Shown here: in pieces, positions 9,358-59,183 of the stretch
Layout: every line of letters begins with the position of its first letter
How positions within the stretch are numbered: the first letter of the stretch is position 1
Origin: Eutypa lata
Lineage: Eukaryota; Ascomycota; Sordariomycetes; Xylariales; Diatrypaceae
DNA length: 64,000 bases
Direction of reading: 5' to 3'
Assembly (NCBI GenBank): GCA_022661535.1
Contig: JAKULF010000009.1
Span: forward strand, 2,108,001 to 2,172,000
The notes under the pieces: model-generated
Databases searched by the model: none
Told to the model about the DNA's origin: nothing
What the model saw: the letters and a program-made list of their open reading frames with translations, nothing else
Made by a program: the position numbers and the translations under genes

Positions 9358-12300
9358 TCAGTAATACCTAACACCCCCCTCCTCCTCAATAGTGTCATTT
9401 CCATCCCTCTCCCCATCTGCATCGGCACCCCCCATAAACCCCCTCTCCTCATCCTCCAAGATCCTCCTAAGGCGCTCGCGCACAACGGGATCCTTCTCGA
9501 GCTCCTGCCAGAGCTCCAGGTGCCACTCCTCGACATTACCATTACCTTCGTCATCAAAGTCCTCCTCCTGCCCCCTGTTCACGATGCGGTTCCACGGCGC
9601 CGTCACCGCTCGGGGAAGACGCCAGAAGCCCGCGACGACGAGACGGCGCTTGATGGCCTTGTAGCTCGTCTCGATAACGATGAGGACGAAGACGATCGCG
9701 AGCGCCGTCAGCCACCAGAGCGGGTCGCGGCCGAAGGTGACGGTGAACCCGTCGCGCGCCGCGTACGGGCTCGGCTGCCGCGCGTACGAGCCGTCTAGGA
9801 ACGCCTGCCAGGCGAACCAGCCGGCGATGGTGATGAGGAAGGCGCCCATCACGACGGAGGTCTTGTGGTGCGTCTCGATGATCCTGTTATAAGAGATCAG
9901 CACGTTTTAGTTTATTACATGTGGGTATGTAATGCGATAATGTGATATGATGACGGAGTTGGTGGAGGGATTGGTGAGAGGGGGAAGGGAGAGGGACGGT
10001 GGGGTCGATACTTACATGAGCTTGTAATTGATCCATATAATGCAAATCGTGAACGCGAGGTCCCCTATTGCGAAAAGCCCATTATCCCTCGGCAGTCCGA
10101 AGACGCTATACGAAGCCCACACGCCGAGCCAGACGAGGACGCCCTCGGCAGCAGCGGCGATCATCCAGCGAAGGAACCTTAGAACATTGAGCTCGCAGTT
10201 GCGCTGGCCATAAACATAGAGCTCAGGCACGGCAAGCAAGGTCTCGGCAGCGAGGTCCTGCTCCCAGACACCCATACATATCGTACACAAACTGGTAAAG
10301 AGGAAGTTCAGCACCGTCAGACTCCACATCTCGTAGAGACTCGTGCCGCTGTACCCGTTATAGCGCTGGTACATGGCGGTGGGGACGTAAAAGAAGACCT
10401 CCTTCCAGAAGGTAGCGAGATAAAAACGCGCAGTGCGGACGTAGTTCCAGCGACCGTGGACGAGCAGCAGGCGCTGCAGGAAGCGGAACTGGGCGACGGA
10501 GTAGTCGGCGACGCGGGCAGCCTGCAAGCCCTCCTTCCCCGAGATGCCGACGCCGACGTGCGACGCCGAGATCATAGCCAGGTCGTTCGCGCCGTCGCCG
10601 ACGGCGAGGGTCAGGGCCCGCGGCACGCGGTTGCGGATCGCCTGCACGATCAGCGACTTCTGCGCCGGCGACGCGCGGCAGCAGATCACGGCGTCGATCT
10701 TGGGGATCAGCGTGTAGAAGAGGTCCTCGAGTGCCGGCGACTGCTCCACGGCCGACAGTGTCTGCCCGTCGATCACGGCTACGCTGTGCACGCACCCGGT
10801 CTTGATGTCCTCGAGGACGCCGTGGATCTGGGTCTCGAGGTTGCCCTTGGTGGAGTCGAGGATGAAGATGTCGGACGCCGGCTGGCAGATGCGGGCCGAG
10901 TGGGCGATGTTGATCGCGGTTTCGCGCTTATCGCCGGTTAGCATCCAGATCTTGATGTTGGCGCGCCGTAGCTTATCGATGGTCTCTGGGACGCCGGCTT
11001 GAAGTTTGTCTTCGATCGCGGTCGCCCCAACTAGGTCGAAACATTGTTCGATCATTTCACCTGCGGCTTCGATCATATCTTGACGATTTACTAGACTGGT
11101 CGTCGCTTCGTTGTAGATCTTCCTCCATGCCTTGTACTCCGTTTCGGAGATGAACTTCCGAGCTATGACCAGGGTTCGCAAACCCTCGGTGGCAAAATCA
11201 TCGAGGTGCTTGAAACATCGACTGAAGACAGTTGCCTCATCAAGGATAGAAGGATCATCGAGAAAATTAAATTTAGCATGAGCCATATTTACTACCGGTG
11301 GCATTAGCGACGGGCTCGGCAATGGCGATGTTTTTAATAAGCTCAGGGTGACAGTCCGGGCACCTAAGGATGGGCGTGGTTCATCTTCGGAAGGTCTGCC
11401 ATTCTTCATAGCCCCCACTGACCTACTTCTCTCTGTGTTTGGCCGCACAGATAACCTACTCGGTTCCCTTACCTCGACACCACCCTGAGGCCCGCCCATA
11501 CTCCTTCGCAAGGTGAGACTGGGACGACCTCCGAAGCTGTTCCGCTTCTCCATCTGCTCGCTCCTTCGATGCATTTCGCGTTCGAGGTCGGCACTTTTAC
11601 GAACCTCCGTAACCTTCTGTGAGGCTAGCGAGGCTAACTTAAGCCTGGGAAGGATTGCGGAATCTGCCCCCTTGCAGATGAGGAATATCCGTCCGTCAGG
11701 GAAACGCACCACGATTGACATCCGCTTCCGCTTACTGCTAAACTCGATCACGTCAAGAATTTGGTAGACCTCATCCTTCCGTCCACCGTTCGGTGTAGTG
11801 ATCCTTAAGGTAACGGTTTGGGAAGATCTTTGGATCACAACATAGCCTAACTCTTGTGCTGCTCGCACTAACGCAAGTTCATCAGGGGACGAGGCCTGGA
11901 AGTCTATCACTCCATCTTGAACTTCAGGTAAGCAGGTGTGACAAAGGGCCATGCATAGAATATAGTCTTGTGCGCGCCTTGCAAAAGATGACGCAGGCCT
12001 TAGCCTAATGTATTCCAGCAAATCCTTGGTGGTCAAGTCGGGTTGGATGTGATCCGGGCGGGCCGTTGATCTCCATTGCGACGAAGACCTTCTCGGTGAT
12101 GGCGAAGGAGGCATGGGTGAGGGGAGAGGTGACGCATGCGTAGATGGAGGGAAAAGTTCAATATTATCAAACGGGTTCCCGCATTCCACCGTTTCAGCCT
12201 TCGATTCTATAGTCTCTGATCGATGAAAGTGAGCTTGTCTAGGACCTGTGGACACCTTAGACGGAACTCGCGATGCCGGCGTCTCCTCAGGTTCCATATC

Positions 12301-13818
12301 CGCTTCATGCAACCAAGCGGTTCCAGCAATGCTCATCTTGCGAAATTTCATGACGTTCTCTGTGAGTGTACCAGTCTTATCAGAGAATATGTAGCTGACT
12401 TGGCCGAGATTCTCTAAGATGGTATTGGTGTTGCACTGTGCTGGCGTGTCGCTGGCTTCGTCGTACATTCCCAAGTCCCCATTCAACATAAGCATCTGTA
12501 TGATTCTTACGATCTCTAATGTGATGTAAAGCGCGAGCGGAATATTGTTGTTGTACATGATTGCGTAGCCGATGACAATCTGGTCGTAAAGTACGTCCGC
12601 TCCATCAAGGTACGGCGAGTTCCGTTCGGTAGACACCTGCCAGTTCTTGTAGCCTCTGGAACATCCAATTGTCAGGCAGATGACATATACGACGAGTATT
12701 ATGACAATCCTGTTCGATATCTTTTCAAGAGCCGGCTTCTTCGCATCAGGATGCTGATTAGCATTCAGTCGAATCTTGCATTCTTCTCCCGTATTAATAA
12801 CCATGCCGATAGCACGTTCCGTATTTCTCAGTGTACTACCGCGATAGACAACTTCATTAGACGTTAGAGGCAGCCGCTTTTCATTCACAGCCACTTGCCC
12901 ATCGAATTGGTAGAGGTCGGCATTCGGGTCTTCCAGAACAAAATCGGCGTGGCAAGTGCGAATGCCGGCAATAGTACCACAAACTTTGAAGTCTGGTGGG
13001 GGCTCTTTTGTTTTCAAGTTTGTTTCACCATCCAAATCCATAGTGTCGAAGTAAGCCACCCCTTCTTCGCCACTAGCATGGAGTAGAACCATATCTGCTG
13101 GAACGTGCTCATCGCGAGACAGCTTCACGATGTCGCCAACTCCTATGTCCCTCCATTTGATTCGCTTCCAACTGTATTCGCTGTCCGTCTCCTCGTCCTC
13201 GTCATGAAGTTCAATATTTATTTCAATGTCTGAATATCTGGAAGAAAACCACTTCCAGGACGACACAGGGGGCCTAGCACTCCAAGACTTCTGGCGAATC
13301 ACCGTAGCAGGGTTCGCATTTTCGACTGTATCAAGCCGGTGTCGCTTAAAATCGTCATATCCTTCTTTTACAATCGTTAGAAGAACGAAGAACAATAGTG
13401 GAAGGATGGTGGTGAAGTTTCCAGTAGTGCTGACCCCAGGAATCGTCTGCGGAATGCCCACACATAGGAAGTAGAAATTGGCCAGTCTCGTAAACTGGAA
13501 GATCAACTGCTTGGGGACGAAGTCATATACAGTATATCGAGAGGTTCGAATCGCGTTCGTAATGTACGGTTGTCCCCGTCGCTCATCGATGAGAGCAGGA
13601 TCGTGTTCGACTCCCAATGGTATTTGGCGACCACGTTCCGAAGGTTTCAGAGGCTTCTGTCGTAGTACCAACTCGATGAAGTATTTTCTATAACATCTAA
13701 GTGCCTCATCGTGAGTCGCGACACGAAATTCATCCCATCTTTTTCGGTATTGCATGATAGCGCTGGGGGCTGCCGTTATCTCCTTGTCTTTGAACCCATC
13801 GTCACGGTCCTTGGCCAT
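9358..13818 (-). CDS. P4-type ATPase, phospholipid flippase of the Dnf3 type
   Basis: Two exons (13818-10016 and 9883-9358) with a 132-base intron (GTAAGT donor, AACAG acceptor) give 1442 residues. The N-lobe reads VYDFVPKQLIFQFTRLANFYFL, with membrane pairs at about 101-150 and 370-440. DGETNLK (about 263-269) is the actuator loop. NNIPLALYITLEIVR stands in for the PISLY motif of transmembrane segment 4. DKTGTLT (Asp480 is the phosphorylated residue) is followed by a long low-complexity insert, then MLTGDKRETAINIAHS, VGDGANDLAMI, and about six C-terminal membrane segments. DKTGTLTENVMKFRK and the long insert fit the Dnf3 subgroup. Such enzymes move aminophospholipids or phosphatidylcholine from the lumenal to the cytosolic leaflet of late Golgi or plasma membrane, with a CDC50-type partner (not in this window). 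All catalytic residues are present. Confidence 0.93.
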
Positions 13819-15860
13819 TCCAGATATTCAATGCGTTGTCAAATGAACGTGTTTGCATCGCAGAACCGTGAAAAGTCCGAAGCTTCCGGTGGTGCCGGCG
13901 ACCGGTCTTTCGGTTCAAAGCCCGTTCAGTAAATGTCGAGATTGTCTAACTAACGTCAGGCCGGGAGTCGCTACGAAACCGAACAAAGCTCTAACGATTC
14001 GAGTTCGCTCGGGGCAATTATGTCGCAGAGACAATATATAACGAGCGAAAAAGAACGATGCGATGGTGATGGAGACAACGGATTCGAATAACGAAGTAAT
14101 GACGAAGCGGGACAATCCCTGTTTTCTTAAAAGGCCGCTAATACATGGGCTTGCATACATAAGTGGGCGCCATTGCACCGCGGCGCAATGCGGCATTGGC
14201 GGAATCCAGGGCTGCCAGGTTTAGGATTAATAAGACCGAACCAGGGGGTAAATATCGTTGAATTAATCCCTGCCAATGTTTTCGGGCCTTGGCGCATTAC
14301 TCGTAGGTATGTCGTATGTGAAACATAAACGATTGATATCATCCAAATATGTACGTACTTAAGTAAGCATAGTAAACAATTCGTGTATGTAGGAATGAGA
14401 AATACCTTCTTTATAATGAGGTATGGAATATAATATACTTAGGATTTTTTGATCATTATAACAAGTGATGATTAACCCCGAACAAGCTGAACATCCTCGT
14501 AAGAAATGCCTGTTAGATGCATACATTTCAAAGGTATTTAAAAGGCTTTGAGTCATCCCCCCTATTCACTTAAAGATTCCTTTCTGTTGTTTAAACCAAA
14601 CATCACCGTGTTATATGTGCCGTCATCGTAGCGTTTGCATCAAGAGCTGGTTTTATGGAGGCCGTAAAAGCTAATGTTTGAATATACTGTATACCCGCGC
14701 CAAGAGGTCTTGGAACTTTTGAACGTTATCTTCGTATGCTAATATTTCGGCTACGTCCTTTAGCGACGACTACGCCAGGGTCTCACGGTGCCTTCGTCTT
14801 CACTGCTTATGCCCCAAGTGGCAGCTCTATGCGACGGCGTCGAAAACCTGCAAGTGAAACTACGCCGTCAGGAAACCGGAGTGGAAGTCGTACAGACGTG
14901 CCCAGGTCGGAGCTTTGCAATGCAGTCACCATGTGTCCCCCTAAGCACCCAGCCTACCACCCGTCCGAGCTCCAACAGAGCCCCGTCGATTACAAATATG
15001 CAGCGCAAGGAATGAGAGGATAATGGAGTGTGTCGACTATGTAGTGGTAATCACCAAGTTAAAGCTTGTTAGCTCAAGCCCTTCGAGTTACCCCAGACAT
15101 GGAGTCCTTGGCAGGTCTGTTGTGGAGGATTCGGAGACCCCAGAGTTTTAGAGCGGTGACATCGGCCTAGTTTTAACGGTCGAGGACTTGAAAATGTATC
15201 TGTACAGCTCCGGGACGAGGCTTGTTTGAAAAGGGGGTGATGTTACAGTCTATCTTCGGTGCTATGTACAGATCAGGACAATGAGAAGGCATTCACAATG
15301 GAGCGAGTGGATGCCTGGTTGTCATAATTGATCTTTGAGGGATCCGTACTCTACCCATTTATAAACAATTTCCTAAAGCCGGTACTTTTTGCTTGCTTTT
15401 TTTTAAATAAAAAAAACCTCCATAAACAGTAGAGACAAATAGAAGTTTGCACTGATCACTTGAAGTCAAGCCTTCCATACACTTCTAAAATAAGGAACCA
15501 GGTTTTGGCTTTTATTCTCATTATATACTTCCTCCTCCTCCACCCCCTGAATTTCCACCATTTTTATTGCCATCCCCTTTCTTCTTATCACCTTTCTTAG
15601 AACGAAGGGAATTATAAGTACACGCATCAACGTGTCGTGAGCGGACATCTGTCTAAGTCTAACCATTTCTATCAACCCAATGCCGGAAGGTAGTTAACAG
15701 TGATGTGGTGTCTCAATGCACCTTGTTCAACTATGCTAGAAGAATATGTCGAAGTCCTGTTCTACATGAGGTGTAAGGTAATATCTCTATGAGAAACTTA
15801 GGATCAACTTGTTTATCATATTATTTTAGAGGTTAAATTGCACGTTAATTATATTAGTAT

Positions 15861-15932
15861 GCTAATATATGCATATTAATACGTGCTAATATATGCATAT
15901 TAATACGTGCTAATATATGCATATTAATACGT
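15861..15932. repeat. Three perfect tandem copies of a 24-base AT-rich unit
   Basis: The unit GCTAATATATGCATATTAAT plus ACGT is repeated exactly three times without mismatch. Each copy contains the palindrome ATATGCATAT and a further inverted AT stretch. The preceding bases (about 15845-15860) look like a decayed fourth copy. Confidence 0.95.
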
Positions 15933-16523
15933 CAAATTTGCCAATGCACGGCTTAATGTCCAGAGTCAGTTGACAAACGAGCTAATCTTAAACAGAGTGA
16001 ATACCGCACTACAGCAGCATATGCATAGCTTAATAGCCCATGCTTATGGGGATCTTGGGTTTGGAAATGACGTACCCGGCCTTGGAGGTAAAGACGGTAG
16101 TGTGCATCATCCGGGACTCGTACTCCATGGAAATTAATCACAGCATGGTCAAGAACAGGGGGGCGAATTAAACGTTGTATTAGACTAGAGTGAGGATTAA
16201 GAGAAAATATATAATATGTAAGTGAGCCAAATAGAAGTTCCGAACAATTTCGTGTTGTTGATCCTGTTCCATATTCAATCTTCAATCGCACACATGCCTC
16301 TATATATAATCTAACCTTTCGTGGGTCATGGTCTATCGTATAATCGAGATGACCTCTCGCGGGGTTCCCGTTTCTTTGTTCTTCACCGTGAGTTTCCAAC
16401 AGTTAGTGAGTGCTCGCCTCCAGCATTATATCTTGCCAAAACAGAATACAACCAACAGTGTCCCTATAGTTGGCTTTGTGCTTGTATGTAGGTTGTTATT
16501 TCACCCTACCATAGGAAGGTCCT

Positions 16524-16544
16524 ATGATCTCTTAAAGAGATCAT
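16524..16544. repeat. Short perfect hairpin
   Basis: ATGATCTCT, a 3-base loop, then AGAGATCAT: a nine-base-pair perfect inverted repeat. A second shorter inverted repeat (CATAGG / CCTATG) overlaps its left side. No T-run follows, so it is not an obvious terminator. Confidence 0.6.
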
Positions 16545-17686
16545 CCCTATGAGGAATATCTTGTTCGAGATAGTTCCATACAGTCCCCAACGAAGTGTTG
16601 TAAGACGAAGCTGTGTTGGTTGATCAAACAGCTAACGAGTCTCTGGTTATCACACGATCATAGATTACTTGAGCCATGAGTTCTGTTGCAGTTGCAAACA
16701 TAACACTTTGGGGTTACATGGATAGAGAAAATAGTTGCGGTAGCTCAGAGGTGATCCCTCTAGGGGTATTGTGAGTCGTACTGCTTAACTAGAAGGACAT
16801 CCGACATATTTTCCTCCGTTATACCCATGCTTCTTGAAAGCGAGGATCGACGAACAAAAACGGTGGGCAGACGATGATTTGTTTGTTAGAGAGTCGTGTT
16901 GCTCGTGTTTGGAATGTTTTCTTGGCTAACTAATGGAAGGCGTATTAACACATTTAGACAGACCAGCATCTACATACATGCATGCCGCTGGCCTTTGAAC
17001 CCATCCACCTGAAGTATTTGGTGAAGTACCCTACTGCATATTGATTCAGAGTATAAATACGTGGGATATCTATTTTTAATACTTTACCCAACGCCCAGAC
17101 CTTGACACAACTAGAAATGAACGCCGCAGTAACCAATACGCTGCAAAATTCGGCGAACCAACATAAGTACAAACTGGTTCGATCGACAGACGTGCAATCT
17201 CGAGTGTTATATCCGGCCCCTATTCCCACTTCCCATTGGCTGCTTGGACTTGATAAAGGGGGGAATGCTGGGCGCACCTGATCAACGTTTAGATTCACCC
17301 TTGCCAGCAGCTAAGTATGAATCCGCAAACGGTAGAATTTCAACTACTAGTATTATCATACTAGTTAGAGCTGTGCCTCTCTGTGGGGTGCTGGACAAGG
17401 AAGATGAGCATGTTGGTTGTTACCTACCTTGGGGTATTCGCGGCTTACATTCCAACTTAGTTGTTAGTACCTACCTTAGGTATGTTGACCATAGGGTGCA
17501 CCTCCAAGAAGGCACAGCCGTAGAGATCACGTGAGAGACTTTCCAAGCATAAACTCGACAGTTCCGTCCCTCGTGTCCCGATTTCCTATCTTCTCTACAG
17601 CTGAGTTTACGTTCTTATCCTCCCCCGTTAATTTTACAACCTTCACTGTTCTATTTCTGGACTTTTACCATTCACTTCAAGTCACG

Positions 17687-19183
17687 ATGACCAGACGCTT
17701 TGAAACTAATGACATCCCGTGCGAAAATATTGAAGATTATCGATCAGGCGGTTTCCATCCTGTCAATCTTGAGGATAGATTCCATGATGGCCGATATGAA
17801 GTTCTCAGAAAAGTCGGCTACAGCACTGGAGCGACAGTTTGGCTAGCAAGGGACTCGCAGTATGTACGCATCCTTGACCTCATGTTCGGACTTGTTTAAT
17901 GCAGATTTAGATCGAGAACTCATCCTTATGTCGCTTTAAAGATTAATGTTTCCAGAAACAAGTGTGTGGATCGGGGCACTAACTATTACACATACTTTTC
18001 CCGTAAACCCTCTTTTATCCTTGAGCTTCTGGACTCTTTCATTCACCATGGCCCGAACGGAGAACATATCTGCCAGGTGATGGGGCCTAGTGTATCGGAT
18101 ACGATACATATCCCTGCCTTACGTTCTCCCAAAATTGGGCGTTTGATATCGCTGGGACTATACCCCTTGCCAATAGTAAAATGGATATTACGCGACACCC
18201 TTCGTGGGCTTAGGCAAATGCATTCTGCTGGCCTCGTGCATGCCGACCTACACCTGCGAAATATTTTATTTACCCCAAACTTTATCCAAAGATATTCCGT
18301 TAAGGTACTTACAAATGTGCACAACAAAGGATATATATTAAACCAAAAAGATCCAGGAGATATCGAAAGGTACCCGAAATATCTCTATCCCCCAAATCCT
18401 TTATACAGTTTTACAACTATCTGGATTGATGTTTCTCCGCGCGTTATGCTTGCCGACCTAGGGTTTGGTAAGAAAGATCCCCGCTCACGACATCCGCCGA
18501 TACGATTGTTAACATGGATCTCAGCCTTTCAGGTAGACCGTCCTTGTGATGCACGGTCGGGTGTCCCAGCATTCCTCAGGGCCCCGGAGGAGGTACTATG
18601 CCGTCCCTTGGGTACAGGAATTGATATCTGGGCGTTTGGCTGTCTTATCTACGAGCTTGTCGCCTCCCAGCAGTTATTTTGTGTTGAGCAGCTTGAAGGT
18701 GGGTCGTTGGATGAGATGACCAACGACGACCATTTAATGCAAATGAATGAAATTCTCGGATTTATGCCACCAAGCTTGACTTCCCAATGGCGAAGGGCAA
18801 GTAGTTATTATGATAAAGAGGGCTGCTTGCGTGTTGGTACGGGCCCGCGACCCCTGAACGCCGATGGATTTAACTATGATCAGTCGTCTCGCAGCAATGG
18901 AGACGAATCCGAGTTCAGCGACAGTATTGAAAGCTGTTTGGAATCTGGTGATTCTGGCGATAACGGGAGGGAGGCACCATTAGCGAGATCACGACCTTTT
19001 GACTCACTTGAGGAATCATTTCAGAATATTAAACGTGACGATATAGAGGAGGATGAAAAAAGAGAGGTTATCCGATTAATTCGGAAATGCCTTCAGTACG
19101 ATCCTGCTAATCGTCCATCTGCTTCCATGTTGTTGTCAGAGGAACCCTGGTTTCACTCAGCTGATGAATGCAACATAGATTGA
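17687..19183 (+). CDS. SRPK-like serine/threonine protein kinase
   Basis: Two exons (17687-17859 and 17905-19183) with a very short 45-base intron (GTATGT donor, TGCAG acceptor) give 483 residues. I chose the ATG at 17687; the frame stays open upstream through a pyrimidine-rich leader. The N-terminus (Y-R-SGGFHPVNLEDRFHDGRYEVLRKVG) is the classic start of fungal SRPK-like kinases. The Gly loop is YSTGATVWLARD, the ATP lysine is in YVALKI (Lys70), the catalytic loop is HADLHLRN (Asp172), the DFG equivalent is DLG (Asp242), and the APE motif is RAPEE. The usual catalytic-loop Lys is His here, as can be seen in other expanded fungal SRPK-like families. SRPK proteins phosphorylate SR-type RNA-binding proteins; these expanded fungal copies have unknown substrates. 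The acidic C-terminal insert before the last helix is low complexity. Confidence 0.88.
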
Positions 19184-34310: not shown

Positions 34311-35966
34311 TTATGTCCCGGCAGCGTAGGTGCTCCTACTTCTCAGCGAAGGGCCGAAGAACCAGAGAAAAAAAGGCGCTGGCACCCCGATGGCTAATGC
34401 TACCAGCGCCAGCACCGTATTGCCCCAGCCGAAATGTAGACTCTGATACAAGTAGGGGGCAAAGAGCGGGAAGGCAAAACCCGCCAACGATCTGACAAAC
34501 ATGGATGCGGCGCTAGCTGATGCAGCGTACGTTGGGTAGACATCGAGTGCGTAGAGCTGTGTGCATTGGAGCGCGAACTTGACGCCCGCGCCGAATATGG
34601 CTATCCCTATATCGGGCATGATCCAGTGCAAATGATTCTGGGCGCTCCAGCCATACCAGAAGAGCCCGATCGGAACCATCAGGGCTCCCGGGAGAAGAAG
34701 AGGAAGACGGTATTCCGGAATCCCGATCCCGTTGCCCCTTGTCTCCTTAAGGCGTTTATATACAACATCTATCAGTCTTGTGCAAACCTGGGTACCAATA
34801 ATGTACCCAATAGCTAGAGCAAGATAGTTTAGACCTGCAATGCTGATTGATAATCCATATTGAGTCGTCCAAAGGATAGGAAATGTTGACAGTGCCAAAT
34901 ATGTCAAGCCGAACACATACGCGATGTACATAGCAAGGACCTGGAGAATCGGCTGAGCGGTCAAAAGGAGGAATGGTCGCACCAGCGCGGCAAAGGCAAT
35001 CTTAGTAAATGTTCTGTCGGGTCTCTCCCATTTTGTGTGCAGTGCAGGATTGCCGGTTTCCTTCCGCAACCTCGCAGCTTTCCGCCCTAGAAGTACTAGT
35101 GCAAAGGTCTCCCGAAAGAAGATGGTTGCCGCGACCTGGATGACCCCATTCGCGATGCTGATAGCCCAGAACGTCCACCTCCAAGAGCTATACTGGGTGA
35201 TGAAACCACCGCAGAGTGGGCCGAGTGTCGGGCCAAGCAGCTTGCCCAGGGTATAAATGCTGATCGACAATCCTCGCTCTTCGGTCCTCCAAACATCTCC
35301 CAGTATGCCGGCTCCTATTACAATAGCTGCGCTGCCAAGACATGCGTTAGCAAAAAGATGCTACGCTAGAAGTCGGGAGAGAACGTGCTAATCATATACA
35401 CACCTTCCACCGAAGCCAGCGAAAAATCGGCACACGATCAACTGGGTCGACGACGTTGCGAAGCCGCACGCAGTGTTGAAAAACAGGTAAAACAAGTTGA
35501 AAAGCTGCAGCACAGGGCGCCTTCCATAGATTTCAGATAGGGGTCCGGCGAGGAAAGGGCCGAAGGCTGATGCCAGGATGAAGATGGAAAGACTAAGGAA
35601 GCGCTCGAATTCCTGCTCCATGTGGAGGTCTTCGCCTATTGCCCCTAATGCGGGAGCCGTCATGGATGTTGAGACAGGAGAGATGAAGCTGAAAGCAGAT
35701 GCGATGGCAGTCAACCGCCATCGAGCAGCACACGGCCAGTTCTTCGGATTTGCAGCATCATCAGGCCCATCCCAGGTAACCTATGAGTAGAGCGGAATAT
35801 AATTAGCAAATATACCCTCTCTATGCCGGGAATTGTACCATACCAGGTGATCATCGGCTACTTCTTCTGGCTTCGGGATAGGTGTTTGAGATTCTGGGGT
35901 TTGAGCTTCAAGGTCGACACTCTTTTCCTGGACGGCCTGCACGGCCTTTTCCGTAATAACGTTCAT
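34311..35966 (-). CDS. MFS multidrug-type transporter (DHA1)
   Basis: Three exons (35966-35844, 35780-35404, 35331-34311) with introns of 63 and 72 bases join in frame to 506 residues. A cytosolic N-terminus (about 50 residues, with the typical VTWDGPDDAANPKNWP) precedes 12 predicted membrane helices in two halves. Signatures are GPLSEIYGRRPVL between helices 2 and 3, CRFFAGFGGS, and AAIVIGAGILGDVW (antiporter motif C of proton-drug antiporters). It belongs to the fungal DHA1 group, which exports toxic compounds, polyamines or small metabolites. The nearest neighbour upstream is the decayed siderophore synthetase, so export of that product is one possibility, but nothing in the protein proves it. 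It appears intact. Confidence 0.92.
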
Positions 35967-41177: not shown

Positions 41178-41915
41178 TTATTCCCCGATCGCACTCCACG
41201 AGACCCCACAGGAGTAAATCTGTGTGTCATACCAACTACTAGCATAGATGGTAAACCCCTTCGAACTGATGTCGGTGGCGTAGACCTTGATCCTCAAGTT
41301 CTGACTCCGCGATGCGTCCAGAGAGCATATACTTGTGGTTACGGCCGGGGGGAATCGGAATTTTCTTAAGAACGTGATCCGTCCCTTGGTCGACTGCTCT
41401 GGCTTTTGCCAAGGCCGAACGTCCATCGTATTCCACGTCCCTGTTTCAACCACGAGCTCACGGGCGGCTCTTTGGGCGGAGAGGTGCTCGACCTTTCTTA
41501 ACAGCTCAACGACCTGGGCTTCTAGAAGAGGGACGGGCGTCACGTGGCCGACAGCGCCGACGCCGACGCCGACGCCGCCTCCGCCTGGAATATTGACGTT
41601 ACCGCCGATTCCTGATCCTCCCTCGCCGGAACCCGACCCCCCACTGCCCCCTACACTTGAACCTGAACCCCCCATACTGGACCCGCCAGTACTGAGCACA
41701 TTGACAATCACCTGAGGGCGGACAGGCGTGCCCCTCTTCCCACAACTTTGGCATTCCGGGGCGGGGAAAATGTTATCAGAATCGTCGCACTCCTGATCTG
41801 CCGTGCTAGACTGATCATCTCGCTCTCCAGTGCCGTCGGGCCAAAGTAAGCGAAGTTGTTGTATGGGACCCTGCGGTGTCATGTTCTGCGATGATTTATG
41901 AGAAAAGAAGGCCAT
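41178..41915 (-). CDS. H-type lectin domain protein with glycine-rich linker
   Basis: Single exon of 245 residues; an ATG at residue 12 is an alternative start. Residues 1-60 are polar and end in a CxxC pair (CQSCGK). Residues about 76-124 form a Gly/Ser/Val tract (GGSGGSGSGEGGSGIGG and similar). Residues about 128-155 are a predicted coiled coil (LEAQVVELLRKVEHLSAQR). Residues about 158-245 match the H-type lectin fold: ETGTWN, ITFLRKFRFPPAV, LDASRSQNLRIKVYATDI, GFTIYASSWYDTQIYS and VSWSAIG at the end. H-type lectins (discoidin I, snail agglutinin, some fungal proteins) bind N-acetylgalactosamine-type sugars as trimers, and the coiled coil would fit trimer formation. There is no signal peptide, so it is cytosolic or non-classically released. 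It is the first of four Gly-rich genes here. Confidence 0.88.
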   Translation of the reverse strand: MAFFSHKSSQNMTPQGPIQQLRLLWPDGTGERDDQSSTADQECDDSDNIFPAPECQSCGKRGTPVRPQVIVNVLSTGGSSMGGSGSSVGGSGGSGSGEGGSGIGGNVNIPGGGGVGVGVGAVGHVTPVPLLEAQVVELLRKVEHLSAQRAARELVVETGTWNTMDVRPWQKPEQSTKGRITFLRKFRFPPAVTTSICSLDASRSQNLRIKVYATDISSKGFTIYASSWYDTQIYSCGVSWSAIGE

Positions 41916-43339
41916 ATTTGCTTTTCACACAACGAAACTGAAATTTCGAATGCAGCCATTCTCACTACATGCGGGACTTCAACGTAAGTACTTCTATTTG
42001 AATCCTGTCTGATTAACAAATAGGTGTAGTTAATACCTATGACAATACCAATGCCCAACTTGGAGAAGATCCATAAGCTGAAATCCTGCATCAATAAATG
42101 TTGATCAACTTCTAGACTAGTACATTTAAAGCTATGGATTTTCAGTCTCGTTATAACCACCGGGACTTTTGCTTATGTACCGGTATCTAAACCATATTTG
42201 GAAGCCTCGGCTTCTTTACCGCCATTAATAATAAACTGCATGTTTACCATAATTATCGTTTATATCGTTCAAATACGGTTAGATACCAATGCATATAAGC
42301 AAAATACCCGGTGGTTATAACAAAACCGATACATTTTCATTTCTTAAGTGATTTGGGCATCAAGACCTTAATGCATTCCTGATGTTGTGAAATGTGATAG
42401 GCAGTGATTAAAGTTATTACTAGTTCGTGAAATGCCCCATGATATTCTGTAATAATAATTGATTGGTTGGTTTGATGGAAAGGTTCGAAAAGGTGCTGCT
42501 CTTTAATGCTTCAAGGCTTTTAAAAGGCTTGATAGGGCTTGGAGTATGGTAATATCATGAATCCCTGCCTATGTAGTACTTCAATTATAACCGGGAGGAA
42601 AAAACAAAGCACTAATAAGATATACACTGTACGGCTCGTGCCGTTAACCGACCCCACAGAGCAAGGGCCCTCCCTCAACTGCAGTAAGCTACTTGATAAT
42701 AACTAGATGCTATTAGAGCTTGATAGAGGTCTAGTTAGTGGAAATATTTACATATCTATATACACAACATGCGTGGGCAACCATCCCCCTATTCAGAACG
42801 TGACCATGCATTATAGGGCTCGCCTAATCAACACAAGCATCGTAATTCACCTAGCACTGGATTGACACTTACTGTTGCGTCTAAAGGAACTGAACTTGAG
42901 CATGTGCTCATTTTTATATATGGAGGCTGTGTGTGGGCAAGGACTCGGGATCGGCTTAGCCTATGGGACATTGCAAGGCAGATTGCCAATATATTAGGTG
43001 ATATTTTATTACATGTTCTCTCTTCTTCTTTCCTCGGCCTAATTAAGTAAACAATATTCTGCCTCGTCAACTTTCACGATAAGGCTCAATACAGGGAGGG
43101 GTACGAGACCATAACAAAACTATTGAAATCGGAGTATTTATAAAGCCCAATGTCATCAGCGCATTAACGGGTCCAGTCTTTTGCCACACCAAAAAGACAT
43201 CCTCACGAAAGAAATACACAAAATTAGAAGGGAAAAAAAAAATACGCGCTCTCCCCAAAACCAACAAAGCACTTCTTTTTGAACGACCACCCCTGCTAGA
43301 GAAGCCCACACCACCTTTCGAGCCCAGATAAAGCCCGAA
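41916..43339. other. AT-rich intergenic in the Gly-rich cluster
   Basis: About 1.4 kb without a credible gene. The region near 42000 probably carries the lectin promoter, and 43150-43339 is the likely leader of the next gene. Short frames at 42828-43070 have no domain. Confidence 0.5.
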
Positions 43340-46184: not shown

Positions 46185-48033
46185 ACAATGCCCCTAAATG
46201 GCATGCGAAGTAAGTCATGAATCTCTTGTCTTTTATTGGCGATGCAGATGATCCCTCAAAACCCCGGTACCAGGTGGAGTTGCCATAATCCATCGTACAA
46301 CTTATGCCCAAAGGGGCGTTCCGCACCCCTTAAAATAGTCTCCGTCCCTTCCTCCTTATTCTACAACAAGGTCCTTTAGCCTACATACATAGTTTTCAGT
46401 ACCACGGCACTCAATGCAGATATGGACTGACAGACCACAATAGACACGATAGTGCTAGTAAATCTAACCAGATACTAAATGGATGGGAGTGGGGATGTGG
46501 TAGACATGGAGAAAACGTGTCTTTATGAGACGCAGTTGGTCAGAAACTGTCGTTCCATTCATTTAATTCGTTGCTGATAGGGAGGGTAACAAGGTAGCCA
46601 GCTGGGGTAGGAAAATCCGAAAATATGTGCTTGCACATGTTTCCACCAATCAAGTTTTCAAGGACAGTCATCGTTCACGTTGTCGTAGGCTAATATACAA
46701 TCAGTAATAATCTTAAACATGCCAATTCCTGACCACAATAAAAGCAAATCCCACGTGTTAATGTTTATATTGTTTAACATCCAAAGTGAGCATGAATATT
46801 TCAGGACCCAGTATTCACTATTAGATCTTAGCTGTGGCTTATTCTAGCACATTTCGACGGCCGAATATTTATAGAAAGATCAAATTGTTCACGGAGAGAT
46901 ATACTTACCGCCACTGAAAAGCATATACAACATAGAAGGGCTACCTGTTGACTAGCATTTCTTCATATCTATCTATATAAAATTCCCGTCCGAATCAGTG
47001 TATAGAATGACGCCAACCCCCTGATGCACCACGTATCGATATAAATTAGTAACTGCAAACGGGAAGTTGCGTCACGAAATTATCGGAACCTTTGTAACAA
47101 TTCCACATAGAATGAAATACTCAAATAGAGGTAACTAGGTGGGCTTGAGGTTGAAATCCCAGGTTGAAAGCCCAGACAGAACTTCAGGCAACTAGGCAAA
47201 AAGGAAGTTTCAAGCAAGTGAGACTTGAACCTACGCAGATTACTCTGCTAAGAAATTGCTTGTTAAGGTAGCCTCAACCTGTCAGACAGACACAAGTGTG
47301 CTGTGTAAGTCTAGGACGAGGGCACACGTTCCGCGTACTACATATTCTCCCATATGAGATTACTAGTATTAACTACATGATATTCACTATCTGGCCACCA
47401 TTATGTGACACCCTACCTAACATCTCCGATACGCTGCATTATCTTGTCGCCAATCCAATACCCTCTGCTTACTACCCTTGCAAAGGCGCATTTCGCTCCG
47501 CCATATTATCAGTGATTCTGAAAACTCGTGCACTAACCGTGTGACTAAGGATCAACATTTAAATATATACTACGAAGTCTTTTTGGCAAGTTGGTTGGCA
47601 AGAAGTAAAAACGGCTGTCTTTTTACATTGTACCAATAATACAAGAAAATAAATGTATACCTACATACATATAAAAATACATTTTTGTTTATTAATTAAT
47701 TTAAGACCAATATTATACATTAAAAATAAACCAATTGCACAATCACTCCCCGTTTTAATTTAGTAGTAGTAATAGCAGTATTATTTGGCGCCAGGGGAAA
47801 GCTGAGAAGCAGCTCTCAACCATGACCTCCCTTGGGGTACTTCGGGCGTGCTAGGATAGGAATAGTTACACTATAATACATAGCAACCCATCTAACAAAT
47901 CACGCCCGAGGACGCGTCACCTTTGATAGGTGGTTCTAGCTGTGTCTCCCTCGTGGCCGGTTGGAGGACAGTATCAGCCTGTTCGTTTTACTTTAGTTAC
48001 ACCTTCTTGCGTAATATATGACAGCAAACCCCA
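46185..48033. other. AT-rich intergenic
   Basis: No gene recognised. A 52-base tRNA-like fold remnant lies at 47211-47262. The last 300 bases are the 3' flank of the viperin gene. Confidence 0.5.
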
Positions 48034-49101
48034 TCACCACTCCAACCCTTTCTTACTACCATCCCCACTACAACCACTCTGTAGCATATCGGAACTGCGC
48101 CAATCGTAAATGCCACCTCGTTCCACAAACGATTTCTTATCCCAAACAACCTGCTTCATAGCCTCCTTGACGCCGACTTGCAAGATCGACTCGCTCTTGG
48201 TCATCATACCCTCGCCCTTGTCTAGGAAGCACATGTACTCATCTAGAAGCAGGTAGCTGCTCTCCATCGACTTGTTATCCTCCGGAACATAGCATGGGAG
48301 ATGCTTGTGGCGGTCACAGAACGTTCGCCATTGTTCATCAGTCACCAGGAAGGCCCTCGCGTCTCGCTTTCTCGTCTCGTCGTCGTTCTCGCCTGCGACG
48401 ATGAGACACTGGAATACTTTCCAGCGGAACGGTGCCAGCTGTTCGATATTGGCGGTCATATCTTCGTCCCAGTTATATATGTTGACGACGGTATTTAGCT
48501 TGAACTTGATTCCGTATTGTCCGCACCACTCCGCAATACGAAACAGCCGGTCCACATTCCCTCCATCGTCGCCACGGCCAATCCTTTTATTGGTCTCCGC
48601 ATTAAACGAGTCGCAAGACACGGCCAGGATATCCAACCACTGGCAATTTTCTCGCATCCACTTTTCCCGGATCTTGCTGCCGTTGCTCACGATGCTGATG
48701 CTCTCGACGCCCAGCTCTTCCTTGCAATAGCAAAGCAGTTCGGTGAGGAGACGAGGATACAGGAAGGGTTCTCCGCCCGCGATGTTGAGTTTGCGCATGC
48801 CGGCCTCTTTTAGCAGCCGCAGACCACGTTTCGCCTCATCGATAGGAAGGACGTAAGAAGAGGTCTCGGTGTGGAAACAGAAGCCGCAGGTGTAGTTGCA
48901 TTTCCGAGATGGGAAGTAATTCACGGAAACTGGGGCGTCCGGTTCCTTTGATGGGTCCCTGGGTGTCTTGTTGTTGGCGTTCAGTTTGAAGAGTTTCTTG
49001 GTTACAATGGAATTAGAAACAGCGTAGAGGGCAATGATTAAGAGACATGAGACAGCCAGTCCATTCGTCAGAAGAGAGATAATAGCCATGATCAGGTACA
49101 C
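48034..49101 (-). CDS. Viperin (RSAD2) homologue, radical SAM nucleotide dehydratase
   Basis: Single exon of 355 residues; ATGs at 49101 and 49089 are both possible. An N-terminal hydrophobic helix (about 5-28) should anchor it to the ER or lipid droplets, as in animal viperin. The radical SAM cluster motif is CNYTCGFC (Cys68, Cys72, Cys75), followed by the GGEPFLYP SAM-binding element (AGGEPF). Further viperin-specific strings are LDILAVSCDSFN, IGRG, FKLNTVVN, RWKVFQCL and SYLLLDEYMCFLD, then ERGGIYDW, and a C-terminal LEW whose Trp355 matches the terminal Trp of animal viperin needed for CIAO1-dependent cluster loading. Viperin turns CTP into ddhCTP, an RNA chain terminator; prokaryotic relatives use CTP, UTP or GTP. 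It is head-to-head with an NMP kinase. Identity is secure; nucleotide preference is not known. Confidence 0.95.
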   Translation of the reverse strand: MYLIMAIISLLTNGLAVSCLLIIALYAVSNSIVTKKLFKLNANNKTPRDPSKEPDAPVSVNYFPSRKCNYTCGFCFHTETSSYVLPIDEAKRGLRLLKEAGMRKLNIAGGEPFLYPRLLTELLCYCKEELGVESISIVSNGSKIREKWMRENCQWLDILAVSCDSFNAETNKRIGRGDDGGNVDRLFRIAEWCGQYGIKFKLNTVVNIYNWDEDMTANIEQLAPFRWKVFQCLIVAGENDDETRKRDARAFLVTDEQWRTFCDRHKHLPCYVPEDNKSMESSYLLLDEYMCFLDKGEGMMTKSESILQVGVKEAMKQVVWDKKSFVERGGIYDWRSSDMLQSGCSGDGSKKGLEW

Positions 49102-49514
49102 ACCCCAATTAGGTATACGCCAGAAAGTTCCTAAACAGTAGGTGTTAAGTTGGTTTCTTCAGCCAAGCGATGGAATTTGGGGACGTGAGCAGTATTTATT
49201 GGCATACGAACAGTCTGACATACAAACAGTCTGACCTAAGAAGTAGCAACATGGAAATACCTAATATTTGATTGGTTTAGATACGTGCACGTGCCTACAA
49301 CAATCTTAGACAGAGTATAAGATCTACCGCTTGCGCTTCCGTCATTCGTGACTTAGTGCGCGTCTAAGAAAACAAAAACATTTTGGGTTTGTAAAGCTAG
49401 GTTTTTTTGTTTATAGAGCTAGTGCTACGATAAAAAGCCATCACTCTTGCCTCACTATCTGCACCGAATCGATCAGAGTAGTATAGACCTCACCGCCTAC
49501 TACTAGGTAACACC
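49102..49514. promoter_or_regulatory. Shared bidirectional promoter of viperin and NMP kinase
   Basis: Only 413 bases separate the two divergent starts, so the genes probably share control elements and could be co-induced. Apart from a short tandem-like GAACAGTCTGAC / AAACAGTCTGAC pair near 49207-49230, no regulatory motif was recognised. Confidence 0.55.
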
Positions 49515-50338
49515 ATGCAGACTACCCCTAATATCCCCACTCCCCGCAACTTTGCGGTCATTTTCGTCCTTGGTACGTATCCTTAGACCCTCCAGTCTAT
49601 CTACCTCAGCCCTGTTCTACTAACTTTTTAGGACCTCCTGGTGCCGGAAAAGGGACGCTCTGCACCCATCTAGCACAAAAACACAACTTGACGCACTATT
49701 CCGTCGGTGATAGCCTCCGAAGTTGGATGCGCGAAAACCGTGCCACATCACTTGGAGCCCGGATCCAAGACAAGCTCGATAATCAGGGATTTCTTACCTC
49801 GGAGGATTTGAACCCATTTATTCGCTGCGCGATAAAAGACGCCATCTACCAAGATGAACCAAAATACCAAGGCATTCTAGTCGATGGATTTCCGCGATGC
49901 ACAGAGCAGCTAGAATCCTTTGACACATGGCCGTTCCAGGACGAATTGCCACTTGCCCCGAGCCGTGGCGGTTGGGCGGGAGCAAATGCCAAACCGGATA
50001 TTGTGCTATCTCTCGGTGTTACCAAGCAAAATGCGAAGGCGAGATATGTAGCCCGGGCGCGAGATAGCAATGACAGCCGGGAGAAGTTCGAGAGGCGTTT
50101 CGTAGAATATGAAGCGGAGACTGTGGAAGTTGAGGAAGTGTATCGGCAGCGTGCCGTTTTGATTGATGTGGGTATCAAACAATCTACGTAAGGAAGAGTG
50201 GGATACTAATGTGTGTAGGTTGATGCAAATGGAACGAAGGAGGAGAACGTCAACACGATGACAAAGAAGCTTGAAGACAGTGAGCTATGGCAAAAGGTCG
50301 TCGTTCAAGGAAGTACAGGGGCACATTTTCTTGTGTAA
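49515..50338 (+). CDS. Nucleoside monophosphate kinase (UMP-CMP/adenylate kinase family)
   Basis: Three exons (49515-49572, 49632-50167, 50219-50338) with introns of 59 and 51 bases join in frame to 237 residues. The second intron uses a GTGGGT donor and has a TACTAAT branch site before TGTAG. The P-loop GPPGAGKGT (about 20-28) spans intron 1. HYSVGDSLR and RIQDKLDNQGFL form the NMP-binding region, DGFPRCTEQ follows, and the LID segment contains RARDSNDSREKFERRFVEYE (one D-x-x-D-like pair, EKFERR). VLID-VDANGT spans the second splice. The length fits UMP-CMP kinase (about 200) with an insert of about 25 residues (GGWAGANAK). In vertebrates CMPK2 adjoins RSAD2, and prokaryotic viperins also occur with NMP kinases; here the kinase is divergent from viperin, so it may supply nucleotide substrate. 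Confidence 0.9.
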
Positions 50339-51425
50339 GGGACATGAGAAATGGAAACATTGCTGGAAGTGTATTGCTGCCTCACGTTTGCATGGGCGCC
50401 CGGTTCGCTTAAGGTTTCACGGAGAGTTTAGAACCAAAGGTCGGCAATTTTTGTGCAACGTAATGAGGTAACTGTGAATAAAGGTTGTCCTAACAATATT
50501 GAATATCCTTTAGTTATTTAGCCGCATAATATTTTATTTTATTTTAATGGAAATGATGGATAGTATGATAGTGGAAAATTACCTACAATATATACAAATG
50601 TCCTTATTGTTTCTTTCTTGTAGTTAGCATGCAGTCATTTCAGAGGCAGCTCTTGCCTTTGAGTTATCACAGCAAGATAAACCAGTATCTAACAGTGCTG
50701 TCAGAATGCAGGTGGAGGTCAGGCATTGCCAGGAAGCTTGGTTCTGTATTCGTAACTAGGTCAGAAATCCAAGGTTTCATGTAGATATAGCCTGCTACAG
50801 CTTGCTGCTGCCTTGCCATTGGTGCCTCAGCTCCTTAGAGCTCTTTTGACCCCTTTAACCCCCTTTGAGCCTTTCAGGAAACCTTGCAACCACTTTGACA
50901 ATACATCCTATCATCCTGGCTGCTGACAAGTACTTAGTATTGAAAATTACAACGTATTGTACTAAGCTTCTGCAATTAGATATCACAACTAATCAATAAG
51001 ACAATATGAAGGAGGGTTCTTGTTTATATACCCCTTCTCTCACTCTTCCAACTAAAATACCCCTAAATGATTATTATGCTTTAACTATAACTCTATACTA
51101 GCATATTTCCTCGGCATACGCTTTTATTCGTTTAGCAAGGATGGTGCCACTCAGGCTACAGGCAGCTACGAAGTACAGTACTTAAGTACTTGGCTCACTA
51201 CATGTAGGTAGGACCCACCAAAGCTTCCCCCACGTTGAAGGATAAGCTTATCGTTTGAAGCCTGGCATCCTGTAGCTATACTAACGTTAAGTAGATACAC
51301 ACTCAACAACCGTCCCATCTTCATTACGAATACTTAGTATTCCACCACAAACTTCCCATTCTCATAGACCACTTTCTAGAGCAATTCCCATTACTATCCC
51401 ATACGGTAACAGAATCCGGCCGAAG
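50339..51425. other. Intergenic with a dispersed repeat copy
   Basis: Contains a 207-base repeat copy (50699-50905) and AT-rich DNA. The last 120 bases form the CSN4 leader. No gene recognised. Confidence 0.5.
50699..50905 (+). repeat. Dispersed repeat copy 1, LTR-like
   Basis: Starts TGTCAGAATG and ends TTTGACAATACA, giving short inverted TGTCA/TGACA-like termini. It is homologous over its length, in reverse orientation, to 58986-59183 (shared blocks include CTTGCCATTG, CTGCTGCCTTGCC, CAGGAAGCT and CCACTTTGACAATAC). Substitutions between copies are consistent with C-to-T/G-to-A decay. No target duplication was seen. Confidence 0.75.
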
Positions 51426-58228: not shown

Positions 58229-58985
58229 CACTTAATTAATAATACACAATATAAAATACTAAAGACCATTATTAAATTGATTATCACCCGGGCCTGCCAT
58301 TACCTAGATTGCCTCATAGTGCTACTTGTTTATGGGATGGATATTGTTAAGATGCAGTAATAAGAAGGTCCAGGTTAATATCTTAAGATGCCCCTTTTAA
58401 TTTAGAACAATTATCCCCTTACTGCCACTGTTGGACACCATCAAGTGCGCATCACCTATCGACGGTTTTCAACAAACTAATTGCACCGCCAAATTTTGTA
58501 GTCACTTGCTGAAACAAAGTGGACTTCATAGCCACTTATAGGCAGAGTGACATTGTAACATGATGAAACCCTAGATCCACTTGCTGCCGGACTAAATGGT
58601 ATTACAATAAGATAACCAAAGTCTGAATTATCTATGTTTAGATGGCAATAAACAATCCGCAATTATTCCATCTAAAATATCCTCTAAGTCGTATTAATAT
58701 AATAACTTTCTTCAAAATTATATTTCATCTTTCATAGGATAAGCGGAGCTGTAGTAGCTACTGTTGTATTAAAGGCAGATGGCAATGATTCTAATGATGA
58801 CGTCGATATTAGTATAACTGACGTTGATACAGATTTCTAGTTGAATAAATGCTAGCATCAACAAGTAGTTTGCTCAACGAATTTCCTGTGTTCTCGAGGC
58901 TAATGCCTCGAAATGTCCCAGCAGTGGCGCCTTGAATTCCCTGTACGTTCATTTCAATCATTATCAACACCTAGGATTTCAGAAC

Positions 58986-59183
58986 GTATTGTCAAAGTGG
59001 TTAAGTAGTTACATACCCCTTGAAGGAGTCTGAATGAGTCAAAGGGGCTCTAAGGACCTAAGGTATCAATGGCAAGGCAGCAGCAAGGTGTACCAGGCTA
59101 TATCTAGCCGACGATTCCTAATCTGGATACAAATATAAAACTGAGCTTCCTGGCAATACCTGACATACCCCTATCTTCTGACA
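58986..59183 (-). repeat. Dispersed repeat copy 2, LTR-like
   Basis: Reverse-oriented homologue of 50699-50905. Shared blocks include TATTGTCAAAGTGGTT, CTCTAAGGA, CAATGGCAAGGCAGCAGCAAG, CAGGCTATATCTA and CTTCCTGGCAATACCTGAC, ending TCTGACA. The central part is more diverged. Confidence 0.72.

Follow-up and report, generated by a model that had tools for sequence, protein, structure and literature searches.

A viperin gene and a diverged ADK-family nucleotide kinase gene arranged head to head in the ascomycete Eutypa lata

The DNA analysed here, called the window, is a stretch of 64,000 nucleotides from the ascomycete Eutypa lata (GCA_022661535.1, contig JAKULF010000009.1, positions 2,108,001 to 2,172,000 of the forward strand). 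It carries two intact genes in head-to-head orientation, one for a viperin and one for a nucleoside monophosphate (NMP) kinase, as the initial annotation had proposed; the spacing given there, 413 bases, is corrected to 425 bp, measured from ATG to ATG. The gene structures, protein families, catalytic motifs and predicted fold are established here, and the features of the locus are collected in Table 1. Fungal viperins are already known, with structures solved and enzymes assayed, and the window enzyme is of this known kind. Viperins are described as ancient in eukaryotes, with most eukaryotic viperins falling in one clade (excerpt of PMC10732462).

Table 1. Features of the viperin and kinase genes and of the region between them, in window positions.
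Feature	Position	Strand	Description and basis
Viperin gene (predicted radical-SAM ddh-nucleotide synthase)	48034..49089	-	single exon, 351 aa + stop; ORF, profiles, predicted fold
CNYTCGFC [4Fe-4S]-binding motif, viperin residues 64-71	48877..48900	-	sequence motif
Phe59 codon of viperin (His in most others read)	48913..48915	-	alignment, reading by eye, PDB sequences
Putative N-terminal hydrophobic membrane-anchor helix, viperin residues 3-36	48982..49083	-	hydropathy and predicted model
Divergent intergenic region between viperin and kinase	49090..49514		425 bp, GC 0.42
Two tandem copies of a 16-bp unit (CATACAAACAGTCTGA)	49203..49235		intergenic; doubled form once in genome
Kinase gene	49515..50338	+	intact, three exons, 237 aa
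Kinase exon 1	49515..49572	+	GT-AG splicing, chosen by eye
Kinase exon 2: P-loop, NMP-binding region, GFPR, LID	49632..50167	+	splicing by eye; Pfam; alignment
Kinase exon 3, ending in TAA	50219..50338	+	splicing by eye

The viperin frame is intronless and intact from ATG to stop, and by profile and predicted fold the protein is certainly a viperin, as first annotated. The viperin model TIGR04278 gives 397.3 bits (under the model's exception cut-off of 450), and its E-value of 5e-119 rules out a chance open reading frame; the match to NF038283 (246.3 bits over residues 54-325) passes that model's cut-off of 180. All the landmarks noted at the outset are present: the cluster motif, the strings AVSCDSF and RWKVFQCL, a hydrophobic N-terminus and a C-terminal Trp. 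The three cluster Cys, together with Lys197, Lys224, Tyr279 and Arg324, are invariant in 14 of 14 aligned sequences. When an AlphaFold2 model of the protein, built with 11 prokaryotic relatives (pLDDT 79, pTM 0.76), was searched against the PDB, ranks 1-30 were all viperin chains (TMt 0.88-0.95), and the first non-viperin was SuiB, with an E-value of 3e-11.

By sequence, the two viperin-like enzymes of Trichoderma virens (55-56% identity) are among the closest relatives of known structure, and the mouse and Nematostella viperins come next. The first T. virens enzyme (6b4c, 7n7i, 9dgw) is 56.0% identical over 291 aa and shares the cluster motif and the C-terminal Trp; the second (9dfn, with its F40H variant 9dfu) is 55.6% identical over 293 aa and superposes with a TMt of 0.95. 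Whereas T. virens has two viperins, judging from PDB titles, a search of the 54.5 Mb E. lata genome at E 0.001 matched only the window gene and found no second copy. At the N-terminus, residues 3-21 have a mean Kyte-Doolittle hydropathy of 2.36, and the helix in Table 1 is modelled at low confidence; this putative segment resembles a membrane-spanning anchor more than the amphipathic helix by which animal viperins bind membranes (PMC9279394).

The window viperin departs from most of its relatives at residue 59, where the context is SVNYFPSRKCN, with Phe in place of the His after the VNY motif. That column is His in all 18 prokaryotic viperins read (13 of 13 in one alignment and five of five by eye), a set that covers 18 of our 33 prokaryotic loci, the other 15 lying outside it, and in which 15 sequences pass the NF038283 cut-off, two truncated ones fail and one (L028) is unscored. 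His also occupies the position in the mouse viperin and, in a difference from the window enzyme, in the first T. virens viperin; Nematostella lay outside the comparison. The second T. virens enzyme has Phe like the window viperin, and its structure 9dfn is, by title, a complex with CTP and SAM. The entry 9dfu is titled as an F40H variant, likewise crystallised with CTP, and the printed 9dfn and 9dfu sequences differ at precisely this position; others thus seem to have probed it structurally already, and no literature on the outcome for the F40H variant was found. Because the second T. virens enzyme also carries Phe, the His after VNY is, on the sequences compared, not a defining feature of viperins, and at least two fungi seem to carry the Phe form naturally. 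With 64.5% identity, the T. virens pair are closer to each other than either is to the window viperin, so that Phe in both lineages would have arisen twice or else be the ancestral state, followed by a reversion to His.

One reading of this substitution is that the enzyme has a shifted nucleotide preference or little activity, in which case the classic ddhCTP or ddhUTP product would be wrong. The uniformity of His elsewhere is consistent with this, since among the sequences seen only the second T. virens enzyme shares the Phe, and the crystallisation of F40H with CTP looks like a test of selectivity. However, the natural Phe enzyme was itself crystallised with CTP and SAM, going by the title, so that Phe does not abolish CTP binding, and we consider this reading unlikely. 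Lachowicz et al. (2021) reportedly described a fungal viperin using UTP. Conversion of CTP and UTP by fungal viperins is in print (excerpts of PMC9642334 and PMC8124187), docking and simulation work on a fungal viperin is reviewed in an excerpt of PMC8124187, and an excerpt of PMC11249213 describes the viperins of eukaryotes as confined to derivatives of CTP or UTP.

The kinase gene has two GT-AG introns of 59 and 51 nt, positioned by eye, and its product carries GPPGAGKG and GFPR. Its match to Pfam ADK (PF00406; 78.1 bits over residues 18-194, cut-off 26.8) has an E-value of 1e-21, which rules out a chance open reading frame. The protein shares fold family, P-loop and GFPR with Ura6-type UMP-CMP kinases and adenylate kinases but differs from both, and falls under both NCBIfam cut-offs: 83.1 against 207.6 for UMP-CMP kinase (TIGR01359) and 95.6 against 168 for adenylate kinase (TIGR01351). 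In an alignment with AK1 and the genome's own Ura6-like protein, the P-loop, GFPR and the Arg of S-x-G-D-x-x-R are all conserved in the window kinase. Compared with both, however, its LID lacks three residues, the G-R-S/V within SGR-DD, and an 18-residue insertion follows the GFPR helix. The initial annotation called it a complete NMP kinase: the reading frame is indeed complete, but the LID and the insertion qualify the description, and with such a LID the activity may be weak or of another kind.

As to substrate, the variable residue of S-x-G-D, which we take to help separate AMP kinases from UMP/CMP kinases, is Val in the window kinase, Thr in AK1 and Ala in the Ura6-like protein. Together with the Gln of GFPRxxxQ (here GFPRCTEQ), this Val points weakly to a pyrimidine rather than adenine nucleotide; the Gln is common to AK1 and the Ura6-like protein, so AMP is still a possible substrate. 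Eight genes of NMP-kinase families were seen in the genome, the window kinase included: five ADK, one TMK and two GK. They include the Ura6-like protein, which passes the TIGR01359 cut-off, long-LID adenylate kinases of Adk1 and Adk2 type (types assigned by eye), a thymidylate kinase and two guanylate-kinase genes (by matches). Since Ura6-, Adk1- and Adk2-like genes are found elsewhere, the window kinase is an extra one. Another diverged paralog of the ADK family, extended by a long stretch at its N-terminus, lies at C10:6479495-6479977 on the minus strand (L006).

Two accounts of the pair deserve to be set against each other. The kinase may be a dedicated partner of the viperin; or the viperin may be a working ddh-synthase and the kinase a diverged ADK paralog with no functional tie to it, placed head to head by accident. 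The diverged paralog on C10 fits the latter, for such kinases evidently occur elsewhere in a genome whose sole viperin match is the one in the window, and so does the difference in GC3 between the two genes (0.64 for the viperin and 0.51 for the kinase). Against accident stands the chance of finding an NMP-kinase gene as one of two neighbours, about 0.001-0.002 for eight such genes in an assumed 10,000-18,000; this makes the adjacency improbable by chance. The figure is suggestive, but the case is single and post hoc, and the gene number is assumed.

The intergenic region offers one further feature, the tandem pair of 16-bp units, which is a possible regulatory or duplicated element. A count of the CATACAAACAGTCTGA unit within the window gave two, and the idea of a genome-wide motif was dropped, as the doubled form occurs once in the genome. 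There were no Rfam matches in the window at gathering cut-offs.

Pairing of a viperin with a nucleotide kinase has precedents. In vertebrates RSAD2 adjoins CMPK2, and CMPK2 is a thymidylate-kinase-family enzyme. The parallel with CMPK2 drawn in the initial annotation holds for position, a kinase lying beside a viperin in both, but not for family: the fungal kinase belongs to ADK, and at E 0.001 it matches ADK, AAA_17 and AAA_18 and has no match to Thymidylate_kin (PF02223). The parallel is therefore at most functional. The prokaryotic pairing of viperin with a VakA-type kinase (PADLOC PDLC02904/PDLC02911) likewise places a P-loop nucleotide kinase next to viperin; the PADLOC VakA model touches the fungal kinase at E 0.009 over residues 20-50 only (31 residues). 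Homology of the kinase to the CMPK2 family or to VakA was accordingly rejected, and the fungal pair is likened to the known viperin-kinase pairs by analogy only.

How common such pairing is in prokaryotes was assessed in 33 loci from bacterial and archaeal contigs, recovered with a three-sequence alignment query; a single-sequence viperin query of the same contigs gave no match. Seventeen viperin ORFs were scored among these loci, 15 of them passing the NF038283 cut-off, and all open frames of at least 100 aa around the 15 were scanned for P-loop patterns. A small P-loop kinase stands beside viperin at two of the 15, 12 bases after the viperin stop at L015 and 345 bases after it at L023, and none was found near the other 13, counts to be read with flanks that are short at some loci (minimum 582 bases on one side) and with other P-loop forms that escape the scan. 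The remaining patterns lay in the viperin's own frame, in frames longer than 1,100 aa, or were chance-like; a scan of 23 loci confined to the first 90 residues of ORFs returned the same two kinases. Both are of the Thymidylate_kin family, in which they differ from the ADK-type fungal kinase, and that of L023 is a clear VakA (229.8 bits, PADLOC). This locus (L023:5932-7791) holds a Vibrio fujianensis viperin whose ORF includes a short X stretch. Large P-loop proteins of more than 1,100 aa, perhaps STAND- or AAA-type ATPases, also lie near two bacterial viperins (L033:2273-5644, at 339 bases; L015:3-3383, at 2606 bases).

The claim that prokaryotic viperins are often linked to NMP kinases thus needs tempering: the linkage exists, but it is modest, both in our loci and in a review that puts it at 15% of prokaryotic viperins (excerpt of PMC11249213). 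The scarcity of kinases among these loci, and the membership of those found in a family unlike that of the fungal one, again suit an accidental neighbour. So does the PADLOC result for the fungal viperin, which is labelled pVip and for which, of the three pVip models, the kinase-unassociated one scores best (228.7 bits vs 210.7 for the kinase-associated one), both models being prokaryotic. No viperin relatives were found in viral contigs or, by tblastn, in phage records. Among predicted viral structures there were 62 matches to the viperin at E 0.001 or better; the best 50 of these show at most 20% identity, and the named ones are generic radical-SAM or Fe-S proteins.

The surroundings were scanned through 18 ORFs of the window. 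On one side, the nearest of them with a Pfam match are a COP9 subunit 4-like gene (from ~51426) and a GDSL lipase; on the other, it is an H-type lectin ORF (41181-41924). Between the kinase and the COP9 gene lies a dispersed repeat of about 230 bp (~50699-50929), possibly a SINE- or MITE-like element. It matches other parts of the genome in at least 42 rows, at 69-86% identity; a few of these rows are pieces of one copy, and one row falls in the window itself, at ~58961-59183. Just downstream of the viperin, ~47761-47983 has four partial matches elsewhere in the genome (75-85% identity).

These surroundings bear on a further reading, that the viperin's product is a nucleotide natural product, secreted or stored, or that the enzyme alters the fungus's own metabolism, with the kinase handling or detoxifying ddh-nucleotides and viruses not being the target. 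The hypothesis that a fungal viperin makes antiviral natural products has been put forward, and roles beyond antiviral defence have been argued (PMC9642334); the window also holds a P450 gene (25834-27513) and an MFS transporter gene (34314-35360), 14-22 kb from the pair. However, no biosynthetic genes were recognised beside the pair among the 18 ORFs scanned, a scan that short or intron-split genes escape, and we regard a natural-product role as quite improbable.

Elsewhere in the genome, Piwi-domain (Argonaute-type) matches occur at four places (C6:4010321, C11:1368443, C6:192104 and C7:307479), two of which are split into two pieces and have stops within a piece, which may reflect introns. 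These domain matches make it probable that the fungus has an RNA-silencing defence alongside the viperin.

Eukaryotic viperins have reportedly been linked to nucleotide kinases by Shomar et al. (2024), and a fungal linkage may therefore already be in print. No viperin-kinase pairing in fungi was found in the titles and abstract openings among the literature matches listed, with subscription papers mostly outside their range. Nucleotide kinases do recur as viperin partners in other lineages, and viperin activity is said to depend on CMPK2 (excerpt of PMC11249213), a recurrence that speaks against accident. Accident is nonetheless a serious prospect for a single locus in one genome, and we give it a substantial probability that stops short of an even chance.

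As the best explanation, held tentatively because its chances also fall a little below even, we propose that the two genes form a divergent unit making ddh-nucleotides against viral RNA synthesis. A viperin of the Trichoderma/Thielavia type, held at a membrane by its N-terminal helix, would, with SAM and its [4Fe-4S] cluster, turn a pyrimidine NTP (CTP and/or UTP) into the ddh form by dehydration, as family biochemistry suggests; the ddh-nucleotide would then terminate the RNA chains of viral polymerases. The divergent ADK-family kinase, extra and diverged, would be transcribed from a promoter region common with the viperin, and would raise the local substrate supply by converting NMP to NDP (UMP or CMP most likely) or re-phosphorylate ddh-nucleotides. 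That the kinase is additional to the Ura6-, Adk1- and Adk2-like genes, and that its S-x-G-D motif has Val, speaks for such a role, whereas its altered LID speaks against it. In this proposal the kinase substrate, the partnership with viperin, the co-regulation and the antiviral role are what we infer, from one locus only. We further speculate, as a rather doubtful extension, that fungi recruited a kinase of the ADK/UMP-CMP family, independently of the thymidylate-kinase-type partners in animals and bacteria, to serve a Phe-type viperin of altered nucleotide preference as its dedicated partner, the two forming a divergent pair on one promoter. That would be the third time that a substrate supply for viperin evolved independently.

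Should the pairing prove real and conserved, it would provide a genetically tractable fungal system for the role of viperin against RNA mycoviruses, and the reason for the repeated linkage of viperins and kinases would become testable. For nucleotide selectivity, the Phe/His position offers a specific candidate that can be assayed. A real and conserved pairing would also mean that unrelated kinase families have been recruited to the same task.
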